IMG/VR virus record: IMGVR_UViG_3300017788_000027 | Coordinates: 1 to 59,104 of that record | Reading direction: 5' to 3' (one strand) | DNA length: 59,104 nt | Source of the DNA: a virus | In this document: positions 26,177 to 49,580 of the stretch, piece after piece | Numbering within the stretch: position 1 is the stretch's first letter | Layout of the letters: each line of letters begins with the position of its first letter | Notes under the pieces: generated by a model | Seen by the model: only the letters and a program-made list of their open reading frames with translations | Databases searched by the model: none | Told to the model about the DNA's origin: nothing | Position numbers and translations under genes: made by a program

Positions 26177-26177
26177 T

Positions 26178-29525: not shown

Positions 29526-29544
29526 TAAAAAAGGGGTTTAAGGG

Positions 29545-31020: not shown

Positions 31021-31026
31021 TAAATA
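31020..31026 (+). promoter_or_regulatory. late promoter motif ATAAATA (looser spacing)
   Basis: ATAAATA starts at the last base of the previous stop codon and lies 32 bases before ATG 31052, six more than most others. AAGAAAAGAGAG lies between. It is plausible but weaker than the others. Confidence 0.5.
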
Positions 31027-31051
31027 ACGAAACTAAGAAAAGAGAGTAAAT

Positions 31052-32012: not shown

Positions 32013-32041
32013 TTGACTTTTACTCTCTAACTCTATAAAAT
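32013..32041 (+). promoter_or_regulatory. sigma70-like promoter of the accessory operon
   Basis: TTGACT (32013-32018), a spacer of 17 bases and TAAAAT (32036-32041) form a near-consensus promoter. Transcription would start near 32048, giving a leader of about 13 bases that holds AGGAG (32049-32053) and a T run before ATG 32061. No other comparable promoter was noticed until the operon ends. Confidence 0.65.
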
Positions 32042-32060: not shown

Positions 32061-32408
32061 ATGAATAAAAACCTACAACAGGCGTTTGAAGTAGCCAATT
32101 ATATGATTACATTGGCTGATCAAAAAAGAGTTTTACAGGAAGAATTTGATCAAAATTCTGTTTATTTTTTAAATGGCGGATGTTTCAAAGTAAACAAAGA
32201 ATTAATTAACTTTGTAAAAACTCTTTTAGATTTAGGAAAAGAGAACGCAGTATTAATTGACAGTAATTCTTTGCCAGTAGAAATCGCCGATCTAAAAACT
32301 TTTTTAGATAATATCCTGCACACGCATTTTTTTGCAGTCAATTCTTATCATACCAAATATCAAAAATTAAAATCTAGCAGAACTATTGAAGGTCTTATCA
32401 GTATATGA
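32061..32408 (+). CDS. hypothetical protein, first gene of the accessory operon
   Basis: A 115-residue protein, mostly helical by composition, with a central FLNGGCFKVNKELINFVKTL and a C-terminal HTHFFAVNSYHTKYQKLK segment. No membrane segment or signal peptide. A strong AGGAG lies seven bases upstream. I do not recognise it. Its stop overlaps the next start as ATGA. As the first product of a glycosyltransferase/radical-SAM operon it could be a substrate, carrier or small accessory subunit. That is only a suggestion. Confidence 0.6.
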   Translation: MNKNLQQAFEVANYMITLADQKRVLQEEFDQNSVYFLNGGCFKVNKELINFVKTLLDLGKENAVLIDSNSLPVEIADLKTFLDNILHTHFFAVNSYHTKYQKLKSSRTIEGLISI

Positions 32409-33238
32409 CCAAAGGTGCTTTAATTTTTTCTTTTGATAATTCTGAAATAGATTATATTTCATTAGCGGCATACTCAGCTAAAAGAATTAGTAACTTCCTA
32501 AACGTTCCAGTGTCACTAATAACTAATGATATTGATAAAGCTAATGATTATAGAACTGTATTTGATCAAATTATATCTTTTGAGGATAATAGTAGACAAA
32601 TAAAAAGATTTTACACTGGATCCAATGAGTATAAAAGTGCTGTATGGTTTAATGAATCTAGGTCTAATGCATTTGTACTTTCTCCTTATGATCAAACACT
32701 AGTATTGGATTCGGATTATATTGTTAATTGTGATTTTCTAAAATATTGCTGGGCACAAAATGAGGATTTTCTATTATACGATAATTCTATGGATTTAGCC
32801 AGTTGGCGTAGTAATGAAGAATTTAAAAATGTAAGTGATTGTGGTATTAAATTTTACTGGGCTACTGTGTTTTTCTTCCGTAAAACAAAGCGTGTTGAAT
32901 TGTTTTTTGCTCTAGTAGATCATATAAAACAAAATTGGCAGTATTACTTGAAATTATACCATCTACCTGGTTCTAAATTTAGAAATGATTATGCTTTTAG
33001 TATAGCAATTAATATATTAGATGGATTTTCTAAAGAATCAAACTTTCAAACTTTTGCAAATAAAATGATATATGTTACTGACAGAGATATTCTATTAGAA
33101 CACACACAAAATAGAATGAAATTCTTATTACAGAAAAAAGGTAAGATTGATGAATACACATTAGTTACTACTGATAATTTAGATGTCCATGTTATGAGTA
33201 AATTTAGCCTATTGGAAGTGATAAAAAATAATGAATAA
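32405..33238 (+). CDS. glycosyltransferase-like protein A1 (GT-A fold, DxD)
   Basis: A 277-residue protein with the layout of a GT-A nucleotide-sugar transferase. The N-terminus is a beta strand then helix (KGALIFSFDNSEIDYISLAA). A strand ends in the metal-binding D102-S-D104 within LVLDSDYIVNCDFL, and aromatic-rich segments follow. The pattern recalls GT8-like proteins of marine phages. The next gene is a paralogue of similar length with the same layout, so the pair is probably a tandem duplication. Overlaps with both neighbours suggest coupling. Donor and acceptor sugars cannot be predicted. Confidence 0.6.
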   Translation: MTKGALIFSFDNSEIDYISLAAYSAKRISNFLNVPVSLITNDIDKANDYRTVFDQIISFEDNSRQIKRFYTGSNEYKSAVWFNESRSNAFVLSPYDQTLVLDSDYIVNCDFLKYCWAQNEDFLLYDNSMDLASWRSNEEFKNVSDCGIKFYWATVFFFRKTKRVELFFALVDHIKQNWQYYLKLYHLPGSKFRNDYAFSIAINILDGFSKESNFQTFANKMIYVTDRDILLEHTQNRMKFLLQKKGKIDEYTLVTTDNLDVHVMSKFSLLEVIKNNE

Positions 33239-34043
33239 AGGTCATGTTTTTCTAGCGCAAAATTCTACTATAGATTATGTTGAGCAGGCCTTTCTGTTGG
33301 CGTCTACTATAAAACAAAATAATAAAATCAATCAAACCTGTTTAATTACTTCAGATGAAGTACCGGACAATTTTAGATCAGTGTTCGATTACGTTGTAAA
33401 AATACCTGGGGAAGATCAAGCAAAGGTATCTAAATGGAAGATAGAAAACAGGTGGAAAATCATTCATGCCACACCTTTTGAAGAGAATTTAGTCTATGAT
33501 ACAGATATGCTGGTATTATCATCAAATGATCATTGGTGGGATTTTTTGTCAAATAAGGACGTTGTATTAACTTCAAAAGTTAAAGATTTTAGAGGTAACA
33601 CTATAGTCAATGACTCATATAGAAAGACTTTTACTAGCAATAATCTTCCTAACGTGTACATGGGTGTTCATTATTTTAAAAAGAGCCCAAAAGCATTTGA
33701 ATTTTATAAATGGCTCGAAGTTATCACTAAAAATTATAAAGATTTTTATTCTAAATTTTTATCTAAGAATCAACAGAGATTTTGTAGTATGGATGTAAAT
33801 GCCGCATTAACTGTCAAATTTATGGATGCTGAAGCAGAATTTATGATAGATACAGATACGCCTTCATTTGTACATATGAAATCAGATATACAGGGCTGGG
33901 GGTCAAAATCATCTTTTTGGCAGGATATAATAACCTGGCACTATAACAAACAGTTAATAGTGGGAAATATTCTACAGACTGGCGTTTTTCATTATACAGA
34001 AGATGATTTTTTAACGGAAGAATTATATGGAAGTATTAACTGA
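33231..34043 (+). CDS. glycosyltransferase-like protein A2, paralogue of the preceding gene
   Basis: A 270-residue protein. It shares with its upstream neighbour a KGHVFLAQNSTIDYVEQA opening and a strand ending in D90-T-D92 (LVYDTDMLVLSSNDHWWDF). Further conserved-looking segments are PNVYMGVHYFKKSP and a C-terminal WHYNKQLIVGN. The GT-A reading rests on the DxD motif in its usual context and on length. It overlaps the upstream gene by eight bases. Divergence from A1 is high, so the duplication is old or the two were acquired separately. Confidence 0.58.
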   Translation: MNKGHVFLAQNSTIDYVEQAFLLASTIKQNNKINQTCLITSDEVPDNFRSVFDYVVKIPGEDQAKVSKWKIENRWKIIHATPFEENLVYDTDMLVLSSNDHWWDFLSNKDVVLTSKVKDFRGNTIVNDSYRKTFTSNNLPNVYMGVHYFKKSPKAFEFYKWLEVITKNYKDFYSKFLSKNQQRFCSMDVNAALTVKFMDAEAEFMIDTDTPSFVHMKSDIQGWGSKSSFWQDIITWHYNKQLIVGNILQTGVFHYTEDDFLTEELYGSIN

Positions 34044-34617
34044 GGAAGAACTTCTTTTAGCCAAGCAGAGATATATACCACCTACTCATGCCTATATCTA
34101 TTATAATGATAATAGGAAAGTTGTTAGTATTTCACCTATAAAATATGATCATGAAGTAACAAATTTTATAGAAGTGCCATTTATTAGGGCACTAGATTTC
34201 TTAGAAGGAAAAAAAGATCCTGCTAGGTATGATTTAGAATATTTTAAAACTGGTAAAGAAAAACTATTGGATACTAAAAAGGTATTGCGAAAAAATCTTA
34301 TATTTCAAATACCAGAAATTAATACTCTAGCTGAAGTAACTTTTGTACATAATATCAAAAATAAAAGATGGGAAGTATCTTTAACTAATTCGGCCATAGA
34401 CGAATTAGAAAAAATGAACTTGAACACAGTTTTAAAATTCTATGTTACAGTTAAATCTAGACCACAGTTATTGATACGTACTATAGATATAAAAGGTACT
34501 GAACTGATAACAAAAAAGTTTATTAATTTTTCTACAGAATACGAGTTAAATTTAGATAAAATTAGTTTATATACATATCCTGAATTTAATTCTTACGGAG
34601 TTAAAAAGAATGACTAA
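34027..34617 (+). CDS. hypothetical protein in the accessory operon
   Basis: A 196-residue soluble protein with no family I recognise. It opens with a helix (EVLTEEELLLAKQRY), followed by PTHAYIYYNDNRKVVSISP, charged helices, and a beta-rich C-terminal half (TLAEVTFVHNIKNKRWEVSL). The start overlaps the previous gene by 17 bases and the stop overlaps the next by eight, the closest packing in the operon. It stands between two pairs of glycosyltransferase-like genes. Confidence 0.58.
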   Translation: MEVLTEEELLLAKQRYIPPTHAYIYYNDNRKVVSISPIKYDHEVTNFIEVPFIRALDFLEGKKDPARYDLEYFKTGKEKLLDTKKVLRKNLIFQIPEINTLAEVTFVHNIKNKRWEVSLTNSAIDELEKMNLNTVLKFYVTVKSRPQLLIRTIDIKGTELITKKFINFSTEYELNLDKISLYTYPEFNSYGVKKND

Positions 34618-35518
34618 ATTGAAAGTTACTGATTTTGATATAGTATATCTCAGCTATGATGAACCTAATGCTGAAAAAAATTACGCAGATTTATTAACAA
34701 AAGTTCCTTGGGCTAAACGTGTGCATGGAGTCAAAGGCAGTGACAGCGCACATAAAGCCTGTGCTAATCTCAGTGAAACTGATAGATTTATAACCATTGA
34801 CGGTGATAATATTATTAGAGCTGAATTTGTAAATCAAGAAATTGATATTGACGACAGTGTGGACCTAAGTCGAAGCGTTATTAGTTGGGGTGCGTATAAC
34901 TTAATCAACGGACTAATATATGGCAACGGTGGTATAAAATGTTGGCCTAAGGATCTAGTGTTAAACATGCGAACGCACGAAAACGCAGACCCATCAAATG
35001 ATAAGGGTCAAGTTGATTTTTGTTGGGACGTTCAATATATACAACAAGATTCTTGCTTCAGCGACATACACAATAATGCAACACCTTTACAAGCATGGCG
35101 TGCTGGATTTCGTGAAGGTGTAAAAATGACACTGCTAGAAGGCACTAAGTTGGCAGATCCGGGTCAGACCACAAAACTAGTTCACTGGAAAAATTTAGAA
35201 AGACTGCTTGTTTGGTGTAATGTTGGATTAGATTCGCTTAACGGTATATGGGCTATATATGGCGCAAGACAGGGCTGTTATATGACTAATTTAACAGACT
35301 GGGATTTTAAAAACGTTAGAGATTTTGAATATCTTAATGAACTTTGGACAACTACAGTATCTAAAGAAATTGATGATTATAATATCTCTGATAAAATTGT
35401 TGAACTAGGCAAAGAAATCTCTAGCAATCTTGATCTGCCAATGGGCTATATGGACTCAGAAGCCAGTAAGTTTTTTAAGATGGTTTACAGAAATCCCAGT
35501 AGGACTAAAACAAAATAA
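34610..35518 (+). CDS. glycosyltransferase-like protein B1 (DGD motif)
   Basis: A 302-residue protein. It opens DFDIVYLSYDEPNAEKNYAD, continues with a WAKRVHGVKG segment, and has D64-G-D66 at the end of a strand (FITIDGDNII). This is the classic start of a GT-A glycosyltransferase. A conserved NGLIYGNGGIKCWPKDL follows, where the NGG turn may line the sugar site. The C-terminus is helical. The next gene is a shorter paralogue. I recall similar proteins from marine T4-like phages without known function. Confidence 0.6.
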   Translation: MTKLKVTDFDIVYLSYDEPNAEKNYADLLTKVPWAKRVHGVKGSDSAHKACANLSETDRFITIDGDNIIRAEFVNQEIDIDDSVDLSRSVISWGAYNLINGLIYGNGGIKCWPKDLVLNMRTHENADPSNDKGQVDFCWDVQYIQQDSCFSDIHNNATPLQAWRAGFREGVKMTLLEGTKLADPGQTTKLVHWKNLERLLVWCNVGLDSLNGIWAIYGARQGCYMTNLTDWDFKNVRDFEYLNELWTTTVSKEIDDYNISDKIVELGKEISSNLDLPMGYMDSEASKFFKMVYRNPSRTKTK

Positions 35519-36216
35519 TGTACGATATTGTTTTTATCAGTTATAATGAACTTAATGCTGATGAGAATTGGCAGAGGCTGAAATCTAGATTTCCTATGGC
35601 ATCTCATATACACGGAGTCAAAGGGATACATCAAGCGCATATTGCCGCAGCGAAATCTTGCTTTACAAATATGTTTTGGGTTATTGATGGAGATGCAGAA
35701 ATTTTAGATGATTTTGATTTTAGTTATATAGTACCTAAACATCAATTACATACCGTGCATGTGTGGCGTAGTCGCAACCCAATAAATGATCTAGAATATG
35801 GAAATGGAGGGGTTAAATTGTTACCAAGGAATCTAACTATAAACATGGATACTGGTAGAACTGACATGACTACGAGTATCAGTCAACACTTTAAAGCGGT
35901 AAAAGAAGTTAGTAATGTGACAGTGTTTAATACTAATCCTTTTAATACTTGGCGTAGCGCATATAGAGAATGTGCAAAACTAGCAGGTAGGATCATTGAT
36001 AGACAAAAAAACGATGAAACTGAATATAGATTAAATGTCTGGTGCACAGTCGGTGGAGACAGGCCATATGGAAAATTTGCGATAGATGGTGCAAATCATG
36101 GGAAACTTTATGGAAGTCAATGGGCTCATGACGTTTCAAAAATGTCAAAAATAAATGATTTTGATTATTTAAAAACCCTTTACGATATGTTAGGTGTCGA
36201 AGAAAAATGCAAATAA
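35518..36216 (+). CDS. glycosyltransferase-like protein B2, paralogue of B1
   Basis: A 232-residue shorter relative of the preceding gene. It shares YDIVFISYNELNADENW, the IHGVKG segment, D57-G-D59 (WVIDGDAEI) and a matching YGNGGVKLLPRNL. B1 has about 70 more residues, mostly at the C-terminus. The start overlaps the B1 stop as TAATG and the stop overlaps the next gene by ten bases. Tandem duplication of a glycosyltransferase-like gene happened at least twice in this operon. Confidence 0.58.
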   Translation: MYDIVFISYNELNADENWQRLKSRFPMASHIHGVKGIHQAHIAAAKSCFTNMFWVIDGDAEILDDFDFSYIVPKHQLHTVHVWRSRNPINDLEYGNGGVKLLPRNLTINMDTGRTDMTTSISQHFKAVKEVSNVTVFNTNPFNTWRSAYRECAKLAGRIIDRQKNDETEYRLNVWCTVGGDRPYGKFAIDGANHGKLYGSQWAHDVSKMSKINDFDYLKTLYDMLGVEEKCK

Positions 36217-37436
36217 AAGATTATTTAGATAGGTTTGAGCTTTTATTTCCTGACAATGAAAATCTTAAAGACTATAGGCGCGCCTACAATGATAAAGATT
36301 TATCTAGTATATTTAAATTGTTAGATAATGATGAGTTGCGTAAGGCAGTTATGGAGGAAAATTTACATAGTATTTTTAGAGTATTAGAACCGCATTCTTT
36401 AAAAAATCTTAAATTAGATAAAGAAGATTTTAGAAAAGCTATTTTAGAAAAAAACTTGCACAGTGTTTTTAGATTATTGGACAAATCATCTACAAAAGAA
36501 ACACAGATAAATTTAGATGATTTTAGAAAATCAGTGATTGAACACAATTTATCTAGTATATTTCGCATTTTAGAATCATCAATAATTGATCTAGATTTCA
36601 ATGTTTCTGATTTTAGAAAAGCGGTTATGAATAATAATCTGCGCAGTATTTTTAGATTTTTTGATTGTGATGACATCCGAAAAGCCGTTATAGATAAAAA
36701 TTTAGACTGCATTTTTAGAATAGAACCAAATGAAACTCTTAGAAAATTGATATTTGAAGACAATTATAAAGTACTATGGGAAATCCTAACTGAAAATGCA
36801 AGAACAACTTTTGTTCAGACTCTTAAATTTATATACAATAATAAAATAGAATTTGATTACAATAGTTTTAGTCAAGGGCAAATTAAAAGTAAGATCTGGT
36901 TGATAAAAGAACTAAAAAAATTAAATTTAAATTTGGGAGTAGTGTTTTTATGTGCAGGATGGTACGCTACACTGGCAACACTTCTTTTTGAGAATGATTT
37001 TCAAATTACTAAAATAAGAAGTTTTGATGTAGATCCGGCCTGTGCTGATATGGCAGACAGGTTTAATAAACCATGGGTGTTGCAGGAATGGAAATTTAAA
37101 TCTTCTACAAAGGATATTTTAGATATAGATTATAATATTGATCTTTACCAAGTTAAAAAATCTGACGGTACATTAGAAACTTGCAAAGACAGACCGGATA
37201 CAATTATTAATACAAGTTGCGAACATATTAAAAATTTCGATCAATGGTATGACAGAATTCCAATAGGAAAATTGCTTATATTACAAACAAACAATTATTT
37301 TGATATCGATGATCACGTTAATTGCAGTAAAAATTTAGAAGAGTTTGCAAAAAATACTCCTATGTCTAAATTGTTGTATCAGGGCGAGCTAGATTTAGTT
37401 AAGTATAAAAGATTTATGAGGATCGGCTACAAATGA
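36207..37436 (+). CDS. repeat domain fused to a class I SAM-methyltransferase-like domain
   Basis: A 409-residue fusion. Residues about 19-197 consist of six full units and one degenerate unit of a helical repeat of the form (N/D)L-x-SIFR-x-L(E/D)...(D/E)-(F/L)-RKAV. Units are about 21 or 30 residues. From about residue 242 comes a methyltransferase-like fold: VVFLCAGWYATLATLLF (motif I region), then RSFDVDPACADMA (acidic post-strand motif), DTIINTSCEHI and GKLLILQTNNYFD. The C-terminus YKRFMRIG is typical of small Rossmann methyltransferases. The repeat may bind a partner or a substrate. Acceptor unknown. It is directly followed, with a 4-base overlap, by the first radical-SAM gene. Confidence 0.6.
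   Translation: MQIKDYLDRFELLFPDNENLKDYRRAYNDKDLSSIFKLLDNDELRKAVMEENLHSIFRVLEPHSLKNLKLDKEDFRKAILEKNLHSVFRLLDKSSTKETQINLDDFRKSVIEHNLSSIFRILESSIIDLDFNVSDFRKAVMNNNLRSIFRFFDCDDIRKAVIDKNLDCIFRIEPNETLRKLIFEDNYKVLWEILTENARTTFVQTLKFIYNNKIEFDYNSFSQGQIKSKIWLIKELKKLNLNLGVVFLCAGWYATLATLLFENDFQITKIRSFDVDPACADMADRFNKPWVLQEWKFKSSTKDILDIDYNIDLYQVKKSDGTLETCKDRPDTIINTSCEHIKNFDQWYDRIPIGKLLILQTNNYFDIDDHVNCSKNLEEFAKNTPMSKLLYQGELDLVKYKRFMRIGYK
36261..36797 (+). repeat. RKAV/SIFR repeat region
   Basis: Seven tandem protein repeats (six good, one degenerate) are encoded here. The conserved core is NL-x-SIFR-x-LE, then DFRKAV and a charged pair. Short (about 21 residues) and long (about 30 residues) units are mixed. 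The DNA copies have diverged, so the repeat is recognisable mainly at protein level. Confidence 0.7.
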
Positions 37437-38602
37437 TCTATCAGTACAAGGATATCAGAACAGTTCATTTGGAAATTACAGAACGTTGTAATGCTAGTTG
37501 TCCTATGTGTGCTAGAAATATAAATGGTGGTGAGGATAACCCTTATCTTAAGGACAACGAATTGACGTTGGAAGACTGTAAAAAGATTTTCCCTTCAGAG
37601 TTTATACAGCAATTGGATAGAATGTATATGTGCGGAAATTTTGGAGATCCAATCGCCGCTAGAGATACATTGGAGGTATTTGAGTATTTTAGAGCGAATA
37701 ATTCTAAAATGAATTTGACTATGTATACCAATGGTAGTGCGAAACGACCCGAATGGTGGAAGCACCTTGCACAGGTATTAGGTAAAAATGCTTATGTAGT
37801 GTTTAGTATTGACGGGCTAGGAGATACTAATCATTTGTACAGACAGAATACAAATTGGTCGAAAATAATAGAAAATGCTAAAGCGTTTATTTCCGCAGGA
37901 GGCCGAGCTCGATGGGATTATATTGTTTTCGCGCACAACGAACATCAAGTTGAAACTGCAGAAGCACTAAGCAAACATATGGGATTTGAAAAGTTTCAAT
38001 ATAAAAAGAGCGCAAGATTTTTTAGTAATAATAGTGGAGTTACTAAAGAAATGCATCAAGCTATGAGCAGAAAAGGCACATCTACTCTGTTACAAGCGCC
38101 GACGAACTCTAAATATCGAAATAGTGTGCTAGATCAGATCAGTAAAGTTGTTGGTAAAGAAGAAGTTATTAAGTTTTTGCCGTCAAAAAAATCAGAAGCA
38201 TTACAAGTTCAAGGAAATCAAAAATTTAGTTCAACCCCTGAATTAAAATCTAAATTGGAAAAAGAGTTGGATTCGGCTGTCATAAAATGTAAAGTAGCTG
38301 AGGAAAAATCGCTATATATAAGTGCTGAAGGTATCGTGCAGCCATGTTGTTGGACAGCGGGGCAAATGTACGTTTGGTATTACAAACCAGAAGCTTCGCA
38401 AATTTGGCAGGCGATTAACATTGTAGGAAAAGATAGCATAAATGCGAAAAATCACAATTTAGAGGATATAGTGAACGGATTATATTTTCAATCAGTAATA
38501 CCTAATAGCTGGAATAAGACTAGCTGTGCTGACGGAAAATTAGCAGTATGTGCCAAAACTTGCGGTACTAAGTATGATGCTTTTGCAGAGCAGTTTAAAT
38601 GA
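37433..38602 (+). CDS. radical-SAM protein R1 with C-terminal SPASM-like cysteines
   Basis: A 389-residue radical-SAM enzyme. The cluster motif CNASCPMC gives C19, C23 and C26. A GNFGDP segment replaces the usual GGEP turn (MYMCGNFGDPIA), and TMYTNGS and FSIDGLGDTNHLYR follow. The C-terminus has further cysteines at 286, 305, 306, 365, 373 and 377, a SPASM-like layout that probably holds an auxiliary iron-sulfur cluster. Such enzymes generate a 5'-deoxyadenosyl radical to modify peptides or small molecules. The next gene is a paralogue. The substrate is unknown; no short precursor peptide is visible nearby. Confidence 0.8.
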   Translation: MIYQYKDIRTVHLEITERCNASCPMCARNINGGEDNPYLKDNELTLEDCKKIFPSEFIQQLDRMYMCGNFGDPIAARDTLEVFEYFRANNSKMNLTMYTNGSAKRPEWWKHLAQVLGKNAYVVFSIDGLGDTNHLYRQNTNWSKIIENAKAFISAGGRARWDYIVFAHNEHQVETAEALSKHMGFEKFQYKKSARFFSNNSGVTKEMHQAMSRKGTSTLLQAPTNSKYRNSVLDQISKVVGKEEVIKFLPSKKSEALQVQGNQKFSSTPELKSKLEKELDSAVIKCKVAEEKSLYISAEGIVQPCCWTAGQMYVWYYKPEASQIWQAINIVGKDSINAKNHNLEDIVNGLYFQSVIPNSWNKTSCADGKLAVCAKTCGTKYDAFAEQFK

Positions 38603-39645
38603 ACATTAATAATATTAGAAAAATTGAATTGGAAATCACAAGCAATTGTAATGCTGCTTGTCCTGGATGTGCTAGAACACAAAATTCGGATATTCTAGAA
38701 ATTCGTAGTTTTACACTAACCGATTTAAAAAGAATATTTCCTGAGGCATCTTATATTAAGAACAAACAATTTAAATTTTGCGGGGTGCTAGGAGATCCAG
38801 CATTTAATTCAGAATGTGTTGACATGGTGGAATATCTAACATTATTTGGTGGGCATTGCCAACTCAGTACTAATGGTGGAATACAAACAACAGATTGGTG
38901 GAAAAGATTAGGTGCAATAAGTAATAGGACAAAAAAAGTTGATGTGGTATTTTGTGTAGATGGACATAAAGAAACCAATCATATTTACCGAGTTAACACA
39001 GTGTTTGATGTTATAGCACGTAACATGGAATCATACGCAACTGCAGGTGGTATTGGTACTTGGATGTTTATTGTGTTCGATCACAATGAGCATGAACTTC
39101 CAGCAGCTGAAAGTCATGCTAAACAGTTGGGTTTTAAATTTGCTACCAGAACCGGTATGAGAAATAGCATACATGATTGGGTTGCAGTTGTTAGTAAAAA
39201 GCAGCAAGGAAAGCTGATAAAGGAGCAAGTGGTTATTACTACCACTGGAGAAAAAGAACACAGCAAAAAAGAACAGGTTAAAGAATTACAAAAATTTATC
39301 GAGGCACCCAAAAAAGAAAAAAAGCAAGAAATCCTAGATTCCATTGTGTGCAAACTAGTTCATGAAGGCGAGATCTTTATTGCATCGGATCAGACTATGT
39401 GGCCCTGTTGTTTTCTTTGGGACAGTTATTTTAAAAATAAAGAAAATATTAGACAAAAACTTAATGGTTATTCTGATGGGTGGAATAGTTTAAAAGATAA
39501 ATCGATCAACGATGTCCTTCAAACTGAATGGTTTGATGAGGTATTAACCCTTAGTTGGGATCCATCACACAATAAACATTTAGATAGATGTATCAGAACT
39601 TGTGCTAAAAATAAAGCATATCAAAATGAGATTAAATTTAAATGA
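38599..39645 (+). CDS. radical-SAM protein R2, paralogue of R1
   Basis: A 348-residue protein. CNAACPGC gives C17, C21 and C24, with the same local context as R1 (IRKIELEITSNCNAACPGCA). The GDP turn recurs (FKFCGVLGDPAF) and the DGHKETNHIYR segment parallels R1. The C-terminus has CK, then TMWPCCFLWDSYF and RCIRTCAKN, again SPASM-like. It overlaps R1 by four bases and R3 by four. R1 and R2 form a subgroup without an N-terminal twitch domain. Confidence 0.8.
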   Translation: MNINNIRKIELEITSNCNAACPGCARTQNSDILEIRSFTLTDLKRIFPEASYIKNKQFKFCGVLGDPAFNSECVDMVEYLTLFGGHCQLSTNGGIQTTDWWKRLGAISNRTKKVDVVFCVDGHKETNHIYRVNTVFDVIARNMESYATAGGIGTWMFIVFDHNEHELPAAESHAKQLGFKFATRTGMRNSIHDWVAVVSKKQQGKLIKEQVVITTTGEKEHSKKEQVKELQKFIEAPKKEKKQEILDSIVCKLVHEGEIFIASDQTMWPCCFLWDSYFKNKENIRQKLNGYSDGWNSLKDKSINDVLQTEWFDEVLTLSWDPSHNKHLDRCIRTCAKNKAYQNEIKFK

Positions 39646-41048: not shown

Positions 41049-42378
41049 ACCTATTATTTGTGCATATGCATTAGGCGCCATTAATTATAAAAATGGCTTT
41101 GTAACCAGTTGCCCTCAACAATCAGACCAGTTGCACGTATATAAAGACACAAAAGTTTTAAAACCTTCTGAAATCATAAATTCTGAAAATTTTAAGAAAC
41201 ATAGAAAAGAATTAATGAGTGGAACATGGAGTAAGGGTTGTCATTTGTGTAAAGAAGCAGAGGAAATTGGGTCGCCATCTATGCGACAGGATTATCTGGT
41301 CACCGATCAAGATTTAGAATTGTATAATAATGAATCGGGAGAAACTAATTTTAAATTAATCAAACACGTCGAATTGCGATTTAGTAATAGTTGTAATATG
41401 GCATGTTTACATTGTAGTGATGTTTATTCAAGCGGATGGGTCAGCAAACTAAAAAATTATGTTCCTGATGAAGAAGATAAAAAACATAAACTTTTACAGT
41501 TAACTAAGACTTTTCATAAATTGACACCTGATGAAGATCTTACTATTAGTATATCTATCAATGAGATGGAAATTATTATTGACGACTTAATTGAAAATTT
41601 CCCTAATTTAAAAAAAGTAGACTTTGCTGGAGGCGAGGTGTTATATCAAAAGCAGTTTTTCCCCTGCCTCAGAAAATTATCCAAGCATCCAAATGTAAAA
41701 AACATGAAGGTGTCTTTTCATACAAATTTTAATGCTAAATTTAAACCAGAAGAACTTTCTGAGGTATTACAGCCTTTTGGAAAAGTGTCAATACAAATGT
41801 CGTTAGATGCTGGAAAAAACATTTATCCATATTTTAGAACTGGTGATTGGGAAGTATTAAAGTCAAATGTTGAGCGTTTTAGAAAAGTTGATAATAAATG
41901 TGAATTGAATATAAAATGCACAACCAGCGTTTATCAGATCATGGACATTGAAGATGTGTTTAAATCTTTTATGGAATTAGATGTCAATTTTATAGACAGT
42001 GCAATAGTTTACACTCCGAGATATATTAATCCGGCGTTAATGGTTATGCACTTTAAGGATGAGGTATATCAAGATATTCAAAAAACATATAAGATGTTAA
42101 GTGATGAATTAAAATATAGATTAGAAAATTTAAGTTCTTATGAACATAGGAAGTCCTGGGTGCCTAATAGGAAAGAGTTTACAGATATTAGAACTGCGTT
42201 TAAAGCATTAGAAGAAATTGAACATTATGTTTTTAATCATCAATGTAAAAAAGAAGAATGGGACGCTCTTTTAGTTTATATTAGAAAAACCGACTCCATA
42301 TGGAAAAGAAATTTCAATGATTTTATAAAGAAGTATGAATTTAAAGATAATCAACTAGTGAGGTCAATAAATGTTTGA
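41041..42378 (+). CDS. radical-SAM protein R4 with degenerate N-terminal twitch domain
   Basis: A 445-residue paralogue of R3. The N-terminal cysteines are C7, C24, C67 and C70. The double cysteine seen in R3, R5 and R7 is reduced to one (VTSCPQQ), so the auxiliary cluster may be altered. The core motif CNMACLHC is at C118, C122 and C125; the turn reads FAGGEV. The rest has SFHTNFNAKF and MSLDAGKNIYPYFRTG. It is the most divergent of the twitch group. The QueC-like gene follows with an 8-base overlap. Confidence 0.8.
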   Translation: MTKPIICAYALGAINYKNGFVTSCPQQSDQLHVYKDTKVLKPSEIINSENFKKHRKELMSGTWSKGCHLCKEAEEIGSPSMRQDYLVTDQDLELYNNESGETNFKLIKHVELRFSNSCNMACLHCSDVYSSGWVSKLKNYVPDEEDKKHKLLQLTKTFHKLTPDEDLTISISINEMEIIIDDLIENFPNLKKVDFAGGEVLYQKQFFPCLRKLSKHPNVKNMKVSFHTNFNAKFKPEELSEVLQPFGKVSIQMSLDAGKNIYPYFRTGDWEVLKSNVERFRKVDNKCELNIKCTTSVYQIMDIEDVFKSFMELDVNFIDSAIVYTPRYINPALMVMHFKDEVYQDIQKTYKMLSDELKYRLENLSSYEHRKSWVPNRKEFTDIRTAFKALEEIEHYVFNHQCKKEEWDALLVYIRKTDSIWKRNFNDFIKKYEFKDNQLVRSINV

Positions 42379-43234
42379 AGACTCGAATAACTTGTATAAG
42401 GATCTGAACGAAGAAAATCAAATTATCGCTAAAGACTACGATATGAAATTATATCGATTTAGCGGGTTGGATATCCCCTGGAGTCCAAAATGGAAAAAAA
42501 TTGCAATTAATCTATCTGGTGGTGCTGATAGTTGCTGTTTGACAGTACTGCTTTGTAAAATAATTGAAAAATATCAATATGATTGTAAAATTGATATTAT
42601 TACACATGTTAGGTGTTGGACGACTCGTCCTTGGCAACAGCCTATAAGTTTAATAGTGTTTAATAAACTTAAAGAAATGTATCCAAATATTATTGATACT
42701 CGCCATGAAAACTTTATCGCACCAGAACTAGAACATGGAGTAACGGGGTACATTTATACTGATCCTAAATTTAATAAAGAACATAGCGGCGATCAGTTGC
42801 AAGTATCTAGTTTTAATGCTTATTGCGGGTTTAAAAATAAGTTCGATGCTATCTTTAATGCCACTAGTTTGAATCCTCCAGGTACCGACTTTCCAAAGAA
42901 AATGATGGATAGAGAAAAAATAGCTAAAGATGGAATAACTAGTGATTTGATCTTATTTGTTGAAGGAAGTTTTTTGTGCCACCCATTTAGGTTTGTTGAC
43001 AAGTCCTGGATCATAGCGCAATATTACAAGTATAAGATCACTGATTTGTTAAAGTTAACAAGAAGCTGCGAAGGTGATGTAACACACCCTGTAATTAAAG
43101 ATATAGTTTCTAGTTATAAAGATTATATTTCTGGTATGGACGTGCCAGAGTGCGGTAGTTGTTTTTGGTGTTTAGAAAGAAATTGGGCATTTTCTAAACT
43201 TACTGAAACTTTAGAAAAAATAAAGAATGTCTAA
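42371..43234 (+). CDS. PP-loop ATP pyrophosphatase, QueC-like
   Basis: A 287-residue protein with the N-type ATP-pyrophosphatase loop SGGADS (residues 49-54) after a hydrophobic strand. Near the C-terminus it has C233, C261, C264 and C267 (SCE...CGSCFWCLERNWAF). This matches the four zinc cysteines and R..AF ending of QueC, the 7-cyano-7-deazaguanine synthase, though the gap between the first two cysteines is longer than usual. QueC adenylates a carboxylate and turns it into an amide and then a nitrile. Here the gene lies inside a radical-SAM operon, so it may act on another carboxylate. A QueE gene lies on the other strand at 58082-58933. Confidence 0.62.
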   Translation: MFEDSNNLYKDLNEENQIIAKDYDMKLYRFSGLDIPWSPKWKKIAINLSGGADSCCLTVLLCKIIEKYQYDCKIDIITHVRCWTTRPWQQPISLIVFNKLKEMYPNIIDTRHENFIAPELEHGVTGYIYTDPKFNKEHSGDQLQVSSFNAYCGFKNKFDAIFNATSLNPPGTDFPKKMMDREKIAKDGITSDLILFVEGSFLCHPFRFVDKSWIIAQYYKYKITDLLKLTRSCEGDVTHPVIKDIVSSYKDYISGMDVPECGSCFWCLERNWAFSKLTETLEKIKNV

Positions 43235-44531
43235 TACTTTTTGTCCTATACCTTGGAACTTTCAAGCCATACGTGCCAATGGTGATATACGTGTGTGTTG
43301 TCAGGCCAATGTGACTAAAAATCAAGGCGTTATTCGTAAAGATAACGGAACTGCTTTTAACGCAGGTAGAGATGTATTAGTTGATGCTCGTAACAACGAC
43401 ATGATGAAAGCAATGCGACTAAACATGTTAAATGGTGTATGGAGTGAAGAATGTGGTCGCTGTCGTAATGAGGAATCTGCAGGATTAGTTAGTAGACGTA
43501 CATATGAAAATGAACAGTGGAAATTAAGTATCGATGAGGCTTGGGCAAAAACTAAAGATGATGGCAGTATAGATTCAACTGATTTTCCTGTAGTTTATTA
43601 TGACTTACGTTTTGGTAATTTTTGCAATTTAAAGTGCAGAATGTGTGGACCCACTGATAGCAACGCATGGTATGATGATTGGATAAAATTAACCGGCAGC
43701 AATAAGTTTAAAGATACCAGCGGCATTATGGAAATTGTAGACGGCAATGTTCCAGCGTTCAATTGGCCGGAGTATGAACCATTCTGGGAACAACTAGAAT
43801 CAAATATTCACAATATACAACATGTATACTTTGCTGGCGGTGAACCTATGCTTATCGAACGGCACTATGATTTTTTAGAGCGATGTGTTGAAAAAGATGC
43901 AGCTAAAAACATCATTGTAGAATACAATACGAATATGAGTACATTGCCCACTAGGGTCACTGATCTATGGACACATTTTAAACAGGTTCGTATAGGAGCA
44001 AGCGTTGATGGAATGGGAATGATGCAAGAATATCAACGCAGTCCAGCAAAGTGGGTTAAGACCCTAAACAATTTACGAAAAATAGATCAGTTGCCAGATA
44101 ACATATTTGGGTGGCTGGCATTTACTGTTACAGCATACAACGTTAATCATATGATCGATTTTATGATGTGGAAATTAAAAGAATCTAATTTTAAAAAAAT
44201 TAATTTCACATTTAAACGACCAATTATTACACATCATGTAGCACATCATCCTAAACATTTAAATGTTAGAGTCTTACCGGATCAATATAAAAAAGAAGTT
44301 ACAGAAAGACTTCAGCAATTTGTACAATGGGTCAAAGATAACGGTTATGCCGGCCATGTAATTAAACAGGCAACTGACATAGCTAATGGGGTATCAAGTT
44401 ACATGAATGCTGAAAGTTATTTTGACACGCATTGGAATGAATTTGTCAAATATACTAACGATCTTGATAAAATAAGAGATGAAAAATTAACTGATGTTGA
44501 GCCCAAATTTAAGGAATATTTAAATGGCTAG
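43227..44531 (+). CDS. radical-SAM protein R5 with N-terminal twitch domain
   Basis: A 434-residue close relative of R3. The twitch cysteines are C6, C24, C25, C76 and C79 (TFCPIPWNF, IRVCC, ECGRC). The core motif CNLKCRMC is at C133, C137 and C140. The turn is a canonical FAGGEPML. Shared C-terminal segments with R3 include HHPKHLNVRVLP and ASVDGMGMMQEYQRSP. It starts eight bases inside the QueC-like gene. The retained GGEP and all cysteines suggest an active enzyme with two clusters. Confidence 0.83.
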   Translation: MSNTFCPIPWNFQAIRANGDIRVCCQANVTKNQGVIRKDNGTAFNAGRDVLVDARNNDMMKAMRLNMLNGVWSEECGRCRNEESAGLVSRRTYENEQWKLSIDEAWAKTKDDGSIDSTDFPVVYYDLRFGNFCNLKCRMCGPTDSNAWYDDWIKLTGSNKFKDTSGIMEIVDGNVPAFNWPEYEPFWEQLESNIHNIQHVYFAGGEPMLIERHYDFLERCVEKDAAKNIIVEYNTNMSTLPTRVTDLWTHFKQVRIGASVDGMGMMQEYQRSPAKWVKTLNNLRKIDQLPDNIFGWLAFTVTAYNVNHMIDFMMWKLKESNFKKINFTFKRPIITHHVAHHPKHLNVRVLPDQYKKEVTERLQQFVQWVKDNGYAGHVIKQATDIANGVSSYMNAESYFDTHWNEFVKYTNDLDKIRDEKLTDVEPKFKEYLNG

Positions 44532-45234
44532 TTTTGATACAGTTGATTTATTAGACGGAAATGTATTTCAAGTTACATGGGATCTTGGAAGAAGGTGTAA
44601 TTATGATTGTAGTTATTGCCCTGCTCATAGACATGATAATTTTAGTCCACATGCAATGTTAGAAGATTTGATTAAAAACAGTGATTTTGTTTTGAAATAT
44701 ATCGATCTTTATATGACTTATAGAAATTATAAAAGAGCAAGTATTAGCTTTACAGGCGGGGAACCAACAGTAAATCCTAGTTTTATCCCTTTTATAAAAT
44801 ATTTAAAAGATACGTACAACGAAAAATATAAAAAAAGATATGATTGTAGTTTTGCACTAACAAGTAACGGCGCTATGAGTGAAAAAATGGCGACTCAAGT
44901 TATGGAAAATTTAGATCATATCACTATCAGTTATCATGCTGAAGCTGATGATAGGCTTAAAAATCAAGTCAAGGATCGAATGGTCCAGTTCCATTTGTAT
45001 GGAGCACAGAACAACTGTACTATGAGTATCAATGTAATGTTTCACGCTGCGTATTTTGGAGAATGTATTAAAGTTTGTGAATTTTTAGATGAACGTGATA
45101 TTAAATATGTTCCTCGGATCATCGGTGAAGAACCAGATAGTAAAAGCAATTTTGCCCATATGTACACCAAGGAGCAAACACAATGGTTCAAAGACTATTG
45201 GGATAAAAATACTAAAAAGGTTCAACAATCATGA
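44524..45234 (+). CDS. radical-SAM protein R6, catalytic half of a split enzyme
   Basis: A 236-residue protein, short for this group. CNYDCSYC gives C25, C29 and C32; SFTGGEPTVNP carries the SAM-binding turn. The sequence parallels residues 20-220 of R8 (VTWDLGRRCNYDCSYC against VSWLLGRFCNYKCSYC; SINVMFHAAYF against TINMVMVPEWF). It then stops, and the next gene encodes what R8 has as its C-terminal cluster domain. The overlap is ATGA, with a -1 frame change. Either a natural split into two subunits, a programmed shift, or a sequence error. Confidence 0.78.
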   Translation: MASFDTVDLLDGNVFQVTWDLGRRCNYDCSYCPAHRHDNFSPHAMLEDLIKNSDFVLKYIDLYMTYRNYKRASISFTGGEPTVNPSFIPFIKYLKDTYNEKYKKRYDCSFALTSNGAMSEKMATQVMENLDHITISYHAEADDRLKNQVKDRMVQFHLYGAQNNCTMSINVMFHAAYFGECIKVCEFLDERDIKYVPRIIGEEPDSKSNFAHMYTKEQTQWFKDYWDKNTKKVQQS

Positions 45235-45692
45235 GCGAAGAAAAAGAATTGGCATTAAAAATAGGTAGACCTTGCTGCGGTAGTAGGACCATGTGTCTCT
45301 ATAAAGAAGGCGAATCTAGAAAGAGTAAGTTTGTTGATTATCGTGAATTTAAAGGTTGGTACTGTAGTGTAAATTGGTTTTTCATGCATATAGAGCAACA
45401 GACTGACAGTGTGTTTCACCATCAAACGTGTCAAGCACAGTTTGGTCAAACTCGTGGGCCTATAGGCAAGTTAAGTGAGGGCGACAAAATTCTCGCAGAA
45501 CTTGAGGAGCATTTAAAGAATGGTACTATGCCTACGATTATTTGCCCTAAGCACACTTGTGGCTGTGGGTTATGTTCCCCTAAATCGACCACTAAAGAAA
45601 ACTATCAAAAAGTATTGTTTAATCACGTTGATAAAAGCGTATTTAAAAATTCTATGAACGAACAAGGTGATTTAGATAAATGCAAAAAATAA
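45231..45692 (+). CDS. cysteine-rich auxiliary-cluster half of split radical-SAM R6
   Basis: A 153-residue protein with nine cysteines (C15, C16, C22, C45, C67, C105, C110, C112, C115) and no radical-SAM motif. The FKGWYC45...C67 spacing of 22 residues is identical to FKNWEC313...C335 in R8. The C105-C110 spacing of five equals C356-C361 there. This supports it being the C-terminal iron-sulfur domain belonging to the gene just upstream. Its ATG overlaps the upstream stop as ATGA. Confidence 0.62.
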   Translation: MSEEKELALKIGRPCCGSRTMCLYKEGESRKSKFVDYREFKGWYCSVNWFFMHIEQQTDSVFHHQTCQAQFGQTRGPIGKLSEGDKILAELEEHLKNGTMPTIICPKHTCGCGLCSPKSTTKENYQKVLFNHVDKSVFKNSMNEQGDLDKCKK

Positions 45693-46774
45693 TCTATTAT
45701 ACTGACGATCCAAAAACCTTATCATGGAATGGGGGATTTATATCTTCTCGACCTTGTTTTTTTCCTACGTTAATGTTTGAAGAAAATAATGTATTTTTTG
45801 AAAATTTTAAAAGTTCAAATTCATATAAAGATGATGATATATTTTATCTGCTGTGGAATGATGGCGGATGTTTAAATGATACACAATTAAAATTTTTAAA
45901 AAATCATAGATGTATAATTGGTGGCAAAGAAGCATACTGCGATCAATGGAAAGAATATTACATTAATTTAAATAATCCAAATTTACTTTTTTTATTTTCT
46001 AGTCAAGGCATTAATACAAAAAATAAGATTTTTTTAGAAAAATATTGGTGGATTTTGACTTATTTTAACTTGGTAGATGCAGATTATAATTTATTGAATG
46101 GAATAACATCAACGAAGACACTTGATAAAAAATTTCTTTTGCCGATTAGAACAACCGAGGGACCTAGAACTTGGAGATTAGAATTTTATGGTTCGTTAGT
46201 GGATCACTTAGATGACAGTCTGTTTAGCAGACATGATCTTGAATTAATGTTAGATCATTCATTGTTTAGACAGAGTGGTTCCGAAGTATCATTAGGTTCT
46301 GATCACCGAGAAAATTTGTTTTCCGATATGGAGTCTAATTGGAATATAATGCAGGCAAATCCAGAATGGTATTCAAAAACACATTTTTCAATAGTTCTCG
46401 AAACTTACATTAAAAATGAATACCCTATCTTTATCACTGAAAAAACATTTAAACCAATTGCTAATGAGCATCCATTTATGATAGCATCAGTGCCACGCAC
46501 TTTAGATACTTTAAGATCATGGGGTTTTGAAACGTTTAATAACTTATTTGATGAGTCTTATGATGATTTGATTTACGAAAGCACTGATATTAGAAAAAAA
46601 GTTCAAATCATAAAGAAAAATGTTGATAATTATGACTACTCTAAATATTATGATTCAACGACCTTGAAAAAAATAAAGCATAATCGAGAATTATTTTTTA
46701 ATCTTGATGAAATTAAAAAACACTATACCAACGATTTTTTATTTCCTATACTTGATTGGATTAATCCTAAATGA
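45680..46774 (+). CDS. glycosyltransferase-like protein C (fucosyltransferase-type C-terminus)
   Basis: A 364-residue protein. The N-terminal half (IIYYTDDPKTLSWNGGF, DDDIFYLLWNDGG) is not characteristic. Residues about 233-285 read HFSIVLETYIKNE, then FITEKTFKPIANEHPFMIA, reminiscent of the E...TEK nucleotide-sugar site of GT-B fold GT10-like transferases. I recall similar proteins in marine phages, uncharacterised. It overlaps the upstream gene by 13 bases and the next radical-SAM gene by four. If correct, it is the fifth sugar-transferase candidate of the operon. Confidence 0.48.
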   Translation: MQKIIYYTDDPKTLSWNGGFISSRPCFFPTLMFEENNVFFENFKSSNSYKDDDIFYLLWNDGGCLNDTQLKFLKNHRCIIGGKEAYCDQWKEYYINLNNPNLLFLFSSQGINTKNKIFLEKYWWILTYFNLVDADYNLLNGITSTKTLDKKFLLPIRTTEGPRTWRLEFYGSLVDHLDDSLFSRHDLELMLDHSLFRQSGSEVSLGSDHRENLFSDMESNWNIMQANPEWYSKTHFSIVLETYIKNEYPIFITEKTFKPIANEHPFMIASVPRTLDTLRSWGFETFNNLFDESYDDLIYESTDIRKKVQIIKKNVDNYDYSKYYDSTTLKKIKHNRELFFNLDEIKKHYTNDFLFPILDWINPK

Positions 46775-47889
46775 AAAATACTTACTGCCCTTTGCCTTTT
46801 TATCATTTAGCGATACGCCCAAATGGTAGGGTTTATCCATGTTGTAATTTTAAATGGGAAGAGGTTCCTGAAGATTTTAACATTAATGATCCTAACGTTT
46901 TTAATCATCCATTTTTAGAATCTATCAGAGAAAAAATGCACAACGGTGAAAAGATTGATGGATGTTCTAAATGTTATGAGGATGAAAAAAATACAGAGCA
47001 AAGTACTCGAACATACTTTTTAAATAGAATAGACGAATTTGAATGGTCAAGCAAGCCTACAAAAGATGTTAAACTAACTTATTTAGATCTTGCTCTTAGT
47101 AACACCTGCAATAATAAATGTAGAATGTGTAATGCAGATTTAAGTACGAGTTGGTATAGTGACTGGCGTGCCCTAGGTAGAGAAATACCTAAAGGGATTC
47201 TTAGACAGGAAACAGTGTTAAAGGATTATGATTTTAGTGAGATGAAATTTATTAAACTTATTGGTGGCGAACCTTTAATGGAACAGGATAAATTTATTGA
47301 TGTGCTAAAAAGATGTAATAGAAGTCAACTATCAATTCTTTTAACTACAAATGTTACACTAACACCAAATGATGAACTATTAAGATTGCTTAAAGAATGT
47401 AAAAATGTTACAATTAATCTAAGTATTGACGCCCACGGATCTTTAAATGATTTTTTAAGAAAAGGCAGCAAATGGGAAAAAACTGTTGAAAACATCGAGT
47501 GGTTTTCTAAGAATTTTTCAAAAAAGAATGATCTAGCACTACACGGGGTTATAAGTCTTTATAACGTTAATAAAATCGATGAACTATATTTTTTCTTAAA
47601 AGAAAATTATCCGTTAATAGATCTCAGTTATGTGTTAGTTGATAGTCCGGATTGGATGAGTATAAAGCATTTACCTGAATATGTAAAAGATGAAATTAAA
47701 AAGAAAATAGAACAATGGAAAAAAATTTACGATACTCCTTTTTACAATGTCTTACTTTCTGAGTTAAACAAATTAGGTGATTTTGAAAAATTTATAAAAA
47801 ATGATAAAAAACTTAGTGAGATTAGAAAAGAAAATTGGTGGGACTACAACCCTGAACTTTACGAAATGGTGAAAAAATATTATGAGTGA
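46771..47889 (+). CDS. radical-SAM protein R7 with N-terminal twitch domain
   Basis: A 372-residue twitch-type enzyme. C6, C24, C25, C65 and C68 (TYCPLPFYH, VYPCC, GCSKC) form the N-terminal auxiliary site. The core motif CNNKCRMC is at C113, C117 and C120. LIGGEPLMEQ is the SAM turn, and LTTNVTL and LSIDAHGSLNDFLRKG follow. It is the shortest of the four twitch enzymes because its C-terminal part is reduced. It overlaps R8 by eight bases. The surrounding DNA is the most AT-rich part of the operon. Confidence 0.82.
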   Translation: MKNTYCPLPFYHLAIRPNGRVYPCCNFKWEEVPEDFNINDPNVFNHPFLESIREKMHNGEKIDGCSKCYEDEKNTEQSTRTYFLNRIDEFEWSSKPTKDVKLTYLDLALSNTCNNKCRMCNADLSTSWYSDWRALGREIPKGILRQETVLKDYDFSEMKFIKLIGGEPLMEQDKFIDVLKRCNRSQLSILLTTNVTLTPNDELLRLLKECKNVTINLSIDAHGSLNDFLRKGSKWEKTVENIEWFSKNFSKKNDLALHGVISLYNVNKIDELYFFLKENYPLIDLSYVLVDSPDWMSIKHLPEYVKDEIKKKIEQWKKIYDTPFYNVLLSELNKLGDFEKFIKNDKKLSEIRKENWWDYNPELYEMVKKYYE

Positions 47890-49048
47890 TCTAGCAACGT
47901 CAGCTTACGACTTTACAAAAATACCATTTGATGATATCGTGCGTGTTGGGCAACGTACTATGCTGTATCGAGATCTTTTTACAGTCAGTTGGCTATTAGG
48001 TAGATTCTGTAACTATAAATGTAGCTATTGTTGGCCTTATGCACGTAGTGATAAAAAAGATCATAGACCTACAGAGTTATGTTTAAAGACTGTTGATGAA
48101 ATAAAAAGACAGGCTAGAGAAAGAGGGTTCAATAGTTTTCATTTTAGTCTTAGCGGCGGCGAGCCAACATTTCATCCTGGCTATATTGACATATTAAATC
48201 ACCTTAACAATGATGTAAACAATACAAATTATACCAGTGTTCATATGACAACAAATATGAGTAGAAATATGAAATGGTTTAAAGAAGAATATTGTCCCGC
48301 AGTAAGTAAATTTCACAGAGCTAGTATTACTGCCAGTTTGCATACAGAGTATATTAACACTTCTGAGAAAAAAGCAGAGTTTGCTGATAAGTTAGATTTG
48401 TGTCAACAACACGATGTACAAGTCACTATTAATATGGTAATGGTTCCTGAATGGTTTGAACGTGATTATGAAAACGCATTGTATTTTCATAATAGAGGAA
48501 TCAATGTTACATTAAAGCCTCAGAGTGATCCTACAGCCAGTTTTGTTGTAGAGGGCTATACACCAGAAATGTTAAAGACTCTGCGCAACGGAATGCCTCA
48601 ACGAGCATTTACAGAAACAAAAGCCGCACTTGCCAAACTAATAGAAAGACCTAAGCCTAATTTTAATAAATCACCAGATCCAATATACTTAGAAGAACAC
48701 AGTGCTATACCACAACATTTTCAAGTTGAATTTGTTGATAAGGACAAAAAAGTTTGGTACATGGATCAAGCTGAAAGATTTAATGCTTTTAATTTTAATA
48801 AATTTAAAAATTGGGAATGTTCAAGCGGATATCGTAGCATCATTATCAGAGAACCTGATGGAAATATAAAACGTAGCTATAGTTGTCACGACGAACCGTT
48901 AGGTAATATAGAAACTGGTTTTAAACTATTTGATGGACCTAAACCCTGTATTACAAACAGTTGTGTAAGTAGCGCAGACTCTAAAATACCAAAAAGAGCC
49001 CCGGGAACAAAATTACCTTTATGGCCCGGGGATCAGTCTTTTAATTAA
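47882..49048 (+). CDS. radical-SAM protein R8, full-length relative of R6
   Basis: A 388-residue enzyme. CNYKCSYC gives C43, C47 and C50; FSLSGGEPTFHPG is the SAM turn. C313, C335, C356 and C361 near the C-terminus (KNWEC, SYSC, PCITNSC) probably hold an auxiliary cluster. R6 and the following small gene correspond to its two halves. It is the last gene of the operon and ends eight bases into the convergent oxygenase gene. The spacing of cysteines and the WEC...PDGNIKRSYSC strand pair look SPASM-like. Substrate unknown. Confidence 0.82.
   Translation: MSDLATSAYDFTKIPFDDIVRVGQRTMLYRDLFTVSWLLGRFCNYKCSYCWPYARSDKKDHRPTELCLKTVDEIKRQARERGFNSFHFSLSGGEPTFHPGYIDILNHLNNDVNNTNYTSVHMTTNMSRNMKWFKEEYCPAVSKFHRASITASLHTEYINTSEKKAEFADKLDLCQQHDVQVTINMVMVPEWFERDYENALYFHNRGINVTLKPQSDPTASFVVEGYTPEMLKTLRNGMPQRAFTETKAALAKLIERPKPNFNKSPDPIYLEEHSAIPQHFQVEFVDKDKKVWYMDQAERFNAFNFNKFKNWECSSGYRSIIIREPDGNIKRSYSCHDEPLGNIETGFKLFDGPKPCITNSCVSSADSKIPKRAPGTKLPLWPGDQSFN
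48999..49031 (+). terminator. GC-rich hairpin near the operon end, possible terminator
   Basis: CCCCGGG (48999-49005) can pair with CCCGGGG (49025-49031) across a 19-base loop, in a region that is otherwise AT-rich. CTTTT follows a few bases later, and the stop region 49039-49054 is a perfect 16-base AT palindrome, TTTTAATTAATTAAAA. The stem lies inside the coding end of R8. It may end the plus-strand transcript. Confidence 0.35.
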
Positions 49049-49580
49049 TTAAAAAACCTGATATCTGCATAGTATATTTGTCTTGAAATCCTGCGTTAGA
49101 ACTAAGATGCAGAATTTCACTGTCCCAAATAAATCCTTCACCTTTATGCCAATTAGTATCAGTAATAAATGAATCATTTTGTTTGTATTGAATAAAATGA
49201 CCCATTTTATAATCTTCAAGATAGATGTTTGCTCTTACTTTTGTTTCTTTTCTTTCTGGAAATTTTTTGCTAATTTGATAAAAAGTATCTCTATGATAAG
49301 GGACTACACAGCCGGGGGGTTGCTTAATAGTTGATACAGTGATAACCTCTATACCAAGTTGTTTTCCTAATTCTGCATAATCTATATGTGTTGGATCCCA
49401 CCAAAGTTGATGAATCATAGTATTATGCATACTATATGTTTTAGGAAATCCACCAAACTCATCATGAATGTCGTTTAGTTCATGAACTTGATGTGCAATA
49501 CAACTACCACAATGAGTACTGTAGTCTGCATTAACAAATTTTTGAAAATCGTAATTTAATTTGATTTTTTTTAATATCAT
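49041..49580 (-). CDS. 2OG-Fe(II) oxygenase-like protein (aspartyl/asparaginyl hydroxylase type)
   Basis: A 179-residue protein; ATG 49580 overlaps the ThyX stop (ATGA). It has a likely iron triad H96-x-D98 (VVPYHRDTF) and H158 (WDSEILHLSSN), with RANIYLED and MQISGFL strands between and after. This is the double-stranded beta-helix pattern of small phage 2-oxoglutarate oxygenases. A Lys or Arg near the C-terminal strand would bind 2-oxoglutarate. The substrate could be a protein, a nucleic acid or a small molecule. It is convergent with the radical-SAM operon and overlaps R8 by eight bases. Confidence 0.65.
   Translation of the reverse strand: MILKKIKLNYDFQKFVNADYSTHCGSCIAHQVHELNDIHDEFGGFPKTYSMHNTMIHQLWWDPTHIDYAELGKQLGIEVITVSTIKQPPGCVVPYHRDTFYQISKKFPERKETKVRANIYLEDYKMGHFIQYKQNDSFITDTNWHKGEGFIWDSEILHLSSNAGFQDKYTMQISGFLIN

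Follow-up and report, generated by a model that had tools for sequence, protein, structure and literature searches.

The operon g01-g18 (positions 32061-49048) of the viral stretch IMGVR_UViG_3300017788_000027, whose 59,104 nucleotides (nt) are called here the window, is built around a core of radical S-adenosylmethionine (radical-SAM) genes. This core is a real, selected unit under strong purifying selection. Islands of this kind are found in aquatic relatives of giant phages, and their content is swapped between related phage backbones, as in O-antigen-type loci. Such islands possibly form an undescribed phage biosynthetic class, i.e., swappable radical-SAM arrays anchored by g18, shared with Bdellovibrionia chromosomes and building variable cytoplasmic modifications (antigen-like chemical diversity); this proposal is a tentative one.

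Conservation of the core

Searches with g13 and g12 led to 28 loci with g13 orthologues, belonging to 23 related viral contigs (L and G numbers designate loci and genomes). The gene order g08-g09-g10-(g11)-g12-g13-g14/g15-g18 is retained across the 23 contigs. Over the 28 loci, g14 and g15 are present in 28, g12 in 27, g09 and g10 in 26, g18 in 25 and g08 in 24; the absences of core genes correspond to contig ends or cut genes. Genes genuinely missing are g11 (absent in L012-L015 and L024) and g17, each from some loci, and g16, from all.

The radical-SAM and auxiliary cysteines are 100% conserved in relatives. The ratio of non-synonymous to synonymous substitution rates (dN/dS), calculated with the closest relative, amounts to 0.02 for g10, 0.035 for g08, 0.04 for g13 and near 0.06 for g18 (partial gene), vs. 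0.65 for g04. It ranges from 0.02 to 0.08 for the core radical-SAM genes where estimable, these estimates being rough since several dS values are saturated. The pairwise distances of g08, g13, g14 and g18 correlate (0.86-0.94). A decayed or chance cassette is ruled out by the invariant Cys and the low dN/dS. An earlier note on this DNA had proposed one linked pathway, and this is supported by the core found in 23 contigs, the invariant Cys and the low dN/dS: the genes are not scattered and unlinked in related phages, and no radical-SAM protein lacks its intact cluster sites.

g18 as anchor of exchangeable islands

Relatives of g18 occur in at least 589 viral stretches of IMG/VR; no match was obtained in 50,697 phage records (E 1e-5). 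More generally, searches of phage records with g03, g06, g10, g12, g16 and g18 gave no close relatives. The best 80 of the at least 589 g18 loci display 60 architectures. Among these 80, g18 is the last cassette gene in 30 of the 35 loci having both flanks, and it has on average 5.5 cassette genes upstream vs. 0.29 downstream.

The identity of g18 is 71-88% with saturated synonymous sites, which rules out recent transfer as the cause of its conservation; that of gp6 of such phages is 36-65% where found. In phages of near backbone (gp6 65%), the island occupies the same tail-fibre/thyX slot and its content differs.

It must be added that two sequences titled Chloroflexi / Acidimicrobiaceae metagenome-assembled genomes (MAGs), L053 (PAAV01000055.1) and L054 (PBYV01000081.1), contain gp6/gp25-like genes, ThyX and replication genes. 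They look like T4-type phage contigs (partly by inspection) and were considered as such, a cellular origin of these cassettes being set aside.

Radical-SAM proteins

The motif CxxxCxxC is present in g08, g09, g10, g11, g13, g14, g17 and g18, and PF04055 matches all of them; the eight radical-SAM proteins announced earlier are thus found again. In g08, Cys 19, 23, 26, 305, 306, 373 and 377 are invariant among relatives. The proteins g10, g11, g13 and g17 are all above the curated cut-off of the N-twitch model NF033640 (170 bits), over the full model. Their CxxxCxxC and N-terminal auxiliary Cys are 100% conserved (12-31 relatives per gene), and the mean pairwise identity of g10 among relatives is 81%. 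The N-twitch profile of these four proteins matches known radical-SAM structures; its N-terminus has a weak match (E 0.008) to the C-terminal portion of BtrN, which is the twitch domain of that protein. Individual phage records have 4-25 matches to the N-twitch model, counting weak matches to other radical-SAM genes.

g14 and g15 are a single open reading frame (ORF) in L021, L024-L027, L039 and L040; as read from these sequences, they are evidently two pieces of one split enzyme. Identity with viperin was rejected (best NF038283 score of 48.8 bits, for g14, vs. a cut-off of 180), as was a known defence system (best PADLOC pVip score of 46.7 bits, far under the cut-off).

PP-loop ATPase g12

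g12 resembles the QueC family (PF06508), Cap9 and QatC by the SGGxDS loop (SGGADS, invariant, in g12), the C-terminal motif of four Cys and a conserved Lys before it. The four Cys are invariant and arranged as C(x)27CxxCxxC, vs. C(x)8CxxCxxC for the zinc motif of QueC. On the contrary, the QueC substrate motifs YPDC, VPxRN and YxQxHxxE (PMC13329287) are absent from the g12 alignment (A1), and the folds nearest to the predicted structure (Foldseek) are those of TtuA, NcsA and TilS. PF06508 matched 2 of 15 g12 relatives and did not match g12 of the window itself. The former description of g12 as a QueC-like ATPase holds only in part: g12 is a PP-loop ATPase having some of the features of QueC. 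The related phages L067 and L068 have a second, distinct QueC-like PP-loop protein, above the PF06508 cut-off.

Sugar-transferase candidates and other genes

The joint g02/g03 profile (A5) matches glycogenin (E 7e-5) and the DxD (D90/D92) is invariant in the alignment, which supports the prediction of GT8/glycogenin-like sugar transferases. g05 and g06 are fused in L021-L022 and L025-L027; their DxD (D57/D59) is invariant and PF00535 matches their relatives at 8e-4. The AlphaFold2 (AF2) model of g06 has 16 Foldseek hits at E<=1e-3, each of them a glycosyltransferase, with a TM score of only about 0.4. These data support the prediction that g05/g06 is a fusible pair of GT-A-like sugar transferases. 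Five candidates had been listed in the earlier note: these four are retained and g16, which has no match, is not.

The methyltransferase formerly seen in g07 was not recovered, no Pfam, NCBIfam or PDB support being found for it. The copy number of the N-terminal repeats of g07 (DFRKAVxExNLxSIFRxL-like) strongly differs across relatives. g04 evolves much faster than its operon neighbours (dN/dS about 0.5-0.65) and is a candidate acceptor or specificity protein.

Comparison with known systems

No characterised multi-radical-SAM phage cluster was found in the literature searched (subscription papers and preprints were mostly outside it), the only relevant papers being PMC2853527 and PMC7029224; likewise, no characterised function was found there for the clusters of CP220/CPt10 or pelagimyophages. 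The former statement that no characterised system has this composition calls for a reservation, since CP220 and the pelagimyophages are uncharacterised precedents.

Campylobacter phages CP220 and CPt10 contain exchangeable modules with five radical-SAM genes (PMC2853527). They are T4-related phages, and in CP220 two nucleotide-diphospho-sugar-transferase-like genes are localized beside the module. Three proteins match the g08 profile, one that of g18 and one, weakly, that of g14. The differences are an amidinotransferase-like gene, a much lower identity and the lack of N-twitch- or g12-type protein in the stretch examined.

In pelagimyophages, radical-SAM cassettes belong to the host-recognition cluster (PMC7029224), a hypervariable island by the tail fibres which also has glycosyltransferases; the island of the window is also variable and beside tail fibres. 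The pelagimyophage cluster is placed between VrlC and gp14; no gp14 was identified in the window, in which a gene of 4648 amino acids is localized upstream. Pelagibacter phage Mosig has g07- and g08-like genes. Pelagimyophages differ from the window in two respects: (i) g10 has only remote matches, and g18 none, in phage records; (ii) by gp6, the backbone of the window is nearest to PA5oct/Atu_ph07-type jumbo myoviruses.

Four Bdellovibrionia MAGs (G020, G021, G023 and G024; e.g., L075 and L076) have 22-37 N-twitch-model matches each, largely in packed islands which hold g08-, g12- and amidinotransferase-like genes. These proteins belong to the same family (NF033640) and interleave with those of phages, forming 18 separate clades among phage sequences in the tree. 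Contrary to the phage loci, no virion genes surround the chromosomal islands examined. Genes similar to short-chain dehydrogenases/reductases (SDR), pyridoxal-phosphate (PLP) enzymes and SGNH proteins are also found in the Bdellovibrionia islands.

Proposed product and alternatives

To the observed gene content, order, constraint, exchangeability and absence of membrane proteins can be added a putative product, acceptor and order of steps. The preferred reading, although it still falls somewhat short of probable, is an exchangeable pathway of soluble enzymes which would make and install, in the cytoplasm, an unusual and heavily tailored glycan (or glycan-like adduct): (i) the GT8-like g02 and g03 and the GT-A-like g05/g06 would attach sugars to an acceptor; (ii) the radical-SAM series (g08, g09, g10, g11, g13, g14/g15, g17 and g18) would perform one tailoring step each, with its own auxiliary iron-sulfur domain, i.e., an oxidation, an epimerisation, a rearrangement or a bond formation; (iii) g12 would use ATP to activate a carboxylate or an amide. 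For the acceptor, a virion protein is the likeliest candidate, e.g., the fibres encoded just upstream; this is the weakest step, based on the proximity of fibre genes in a single lineage group.

Three records have a longer operon, with NTP-transferase, cupin, shikimate-dehydrogenase-like, GatZ/KbaZ-like aldolase and carbamoyltransferase genes on its upstream side (Pfam run for a single one of these records). The contig of a sister phage further contains a SIS isomerase, a GHMP kinase, a cytidylyltransferase and a halogenase. Apart from the shikimate-dehydrogenase-like gene and the halogenase, these genes would have sugar-precursor functions. The earlier note hesitated between a modified glycan and a small molecule; the GT8-like and GT-A proteins and the sugar genes of sister islands favour a sugar pathway, the product itself being unproven. 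A hydropathy scan of the 18 operon proteins and of 459 island genes from the 60 architectures detected no transmembrane-like segment, which points to a cytoplasmic acceptor.

Several points weigh against the preferred reading. Most of the genes have no close characterised relative. The operon of the window contains no gene for the synthesis of nucleoside-diphosphate sugars, and the sugars would come from the host. The substrates of SPASM/twitch radical-SAM enzymes are often peptides or small molecules. Transmembrane segments were looked for by a hydropathy scan only. Finally, in more distant phages the tail-fibre match nearest to g18 is at a distance of about 50 kb or more, and the acceptor therefore need not be a fibre.

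It is rather unlikely that the island alters the host envelope, i.e., lipopolysaccharide (LPS) or capsule sugars, preventing superinfection or remodelling receptors in the course of infection. The same role was proposed for the glycosyltransferases of pelagimyophage host-recognition clusters (PMC7029224), surface antigens typically have exchangeable loci, and heptose-type precursor genes exist in one sister phage. Nevertheless, with no transmembrane-like protein among the 459 island genes, a flippase, a polymerase and a lipid-linked transferase are all lacking there, and every membrane step would have to come from the host.

A small molecule that diffuses and acts as a signal, an inhibitor or a cofactor-like metabolite, no polymer being decorated, is unlikely. 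It would account for natural-product-like neighbours in other islands, i.e., the amidinotransferase-like gene of L053, the B12 radical SAM and halogenase of a sister island, and the nitroreductase-, SDR- and PLP-like proteins (by inspection), and also for the PP-loop ATPase g12. It fits poorly with the presence of several sugar-transferase-like genes and the absence of an exporter, and 60 architectures would be odd for one fixed metabolite.

Hypermodification of DNA or RNA bases of the phage is improbable. The phage genome also has a gene for a QueE-like radical-SAM protein (window 58082-58933, minus strand, phrog_2076), g12 shares motifs with QueC and the proteins are all soluble, but g12 is devoid of the QueC substrate motifs (PMC13329287) and the thymidylate synthase is an ordinary ThyX, or a PF00303 enzyme in two records. 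Moreover, TGT/DpdA is found in 0 of 18 related records (all possibly fragments), and the deazaguanine DNA-modification route was set aside on this basis.

Lastly, maturation of a peptide, possibly on a phage protein, in the manner of ribosomally synthesised and post-translationally modified peptides (RiPPs), is highly improbable: SPASM/twitch enzymes commonly act on peptides and a weak similarity to PapB, SkfB and related maturases is observed, but no separate, linked precursor ORF fits within the fully overlapping operon, no recurrent small ORF family exceeds 7 of the 60 architectures, and no RiPP maturase model reached its cut-off with the operon proteins.

Operon layout and flanks

The recount of ORFs gives 18 genes on the plus strand (Table 1) with 17 overlapping junctions out of 17, as previously reported: the overlap is of 4 nt at six junctions, 8 nt at seven, and 1, 10, 13 and 17 nt at one each. 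The promoter announced at the operon head corresponds to one site before g01. However, sigma70-like sites are not enriched across the region (91 vs. 92.3 in shuffles), so it is only by its position that this candidate is supported. Exact T4-type TATAAATA late promoters are absent from the window (0 occurrence). The hairpin reported near the operon end was retrieved: the fold of 48985-49065 has an energy of −20.4 kcal/mol (z −2.76), without an immediate T tract after the hairpin.

The GC content is about 29-36% for the operon vs. about 35-40% for the fibre block. The gene order of the upstream flank is the same in L081, L084 and L086, g01 comes after the tail-fibre block in relatives, and thyX adjoins the island in many of them. 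Elsewhere in the window, a single ORF of 4648 amino acids (11599-25545) lies between gp6 and the tail fibres, and a DUF2201/VWA protein adjoins an AAA ATPase at 51742-54072 (MoxR-like pair, by inspection).

Table 1. Features of the operon and its flanks (window coordinates; aa, amino acids).
Feature	Position	Strand	Remark
Tail-fibre genes and gene 31052, syntenic upstream flank	26166..32002	+	PHROG tail fibre matches
sigma70-like promoter candidate	32013..32041	+	TTGACT-17-TAAAAT, 10/12 match, within the 58-nt gap 5' of g01
g01, 115 aa	32061..32408	+	53-63% identity among relatives
g02, GT8-like sugar transferase candidate	32405..33238	+	profile match to glycogenin
g03, GT8-like sugar transferase candidate	33231..34043	+	profile match to glycogenin
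g04, fast-evolving protein	34027..34617	+	25-34% identity in relatives
g05, GT-A-like protein, g06 paralogue	34610..35518	+	DxD, fusion with g06
g06, GT-A-like protein	35518..36216	+	AF2 model pLDDT 92.5
g07, N-terminal repeats and conserved C-terminal domain, possible Rossmann enzyme (unconfirmed)	36207..37436	+	
g08, radical SAM with C-terminal SPASM-like cysteines	37433..38602	+	PF04055 39.5 bits
g09, radical SAM with SPASM-like cysteines (C-terminal)	38599..39645	+	conserved Cys pattern
g10, N-twitch radical SAM	39642..41048	+	NF033640 411.6 bits
g11, N-twitch radical SAM, accessory	41041..42378	+	NF033640 211.3 bits
g12, PP-loop ATPase with 4-Cys C-terminal motif	42371..43234	+	SGGADS loop
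g13, N-twitch radical SAM	43227..44531	+	NF033640 380.7 bits
g14, radical-SAM core	44524..45234	+	fused to g15 in some relatives
g15, Cys-rich auxiliary-cluster domain of g14	45231..45692	+	nine invariant Cys
g16	45680..46774	+	no family or phage match; in 0/28 loci
g17, N-twitch radical SAM, accessory	46771..47889	+	NF033640 272.5 bits
g18, anchor radical SAM with SPASM-like C-terminal domain	47882..49048	+	mean column identity 75%
Hairpin	48999..49031	+	inside the g18 3' end (last codons)
thyX, downstream flank	49577..50242	-	PHROG 85

Significance

Phage radical-SAM clusters have been noted since 2010 without any function assigned. The conserved core, the anchor gene g18, two composite enzymes recognised by fusion and the swapped variants on related backbones are newly defined here, and the question of function thus becomes testable. 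If the product decorates virions, these islands would add a new level of chemistry to phage-host recognition, and they would also be a large source of radical-SAM enzymes still to be characterised.

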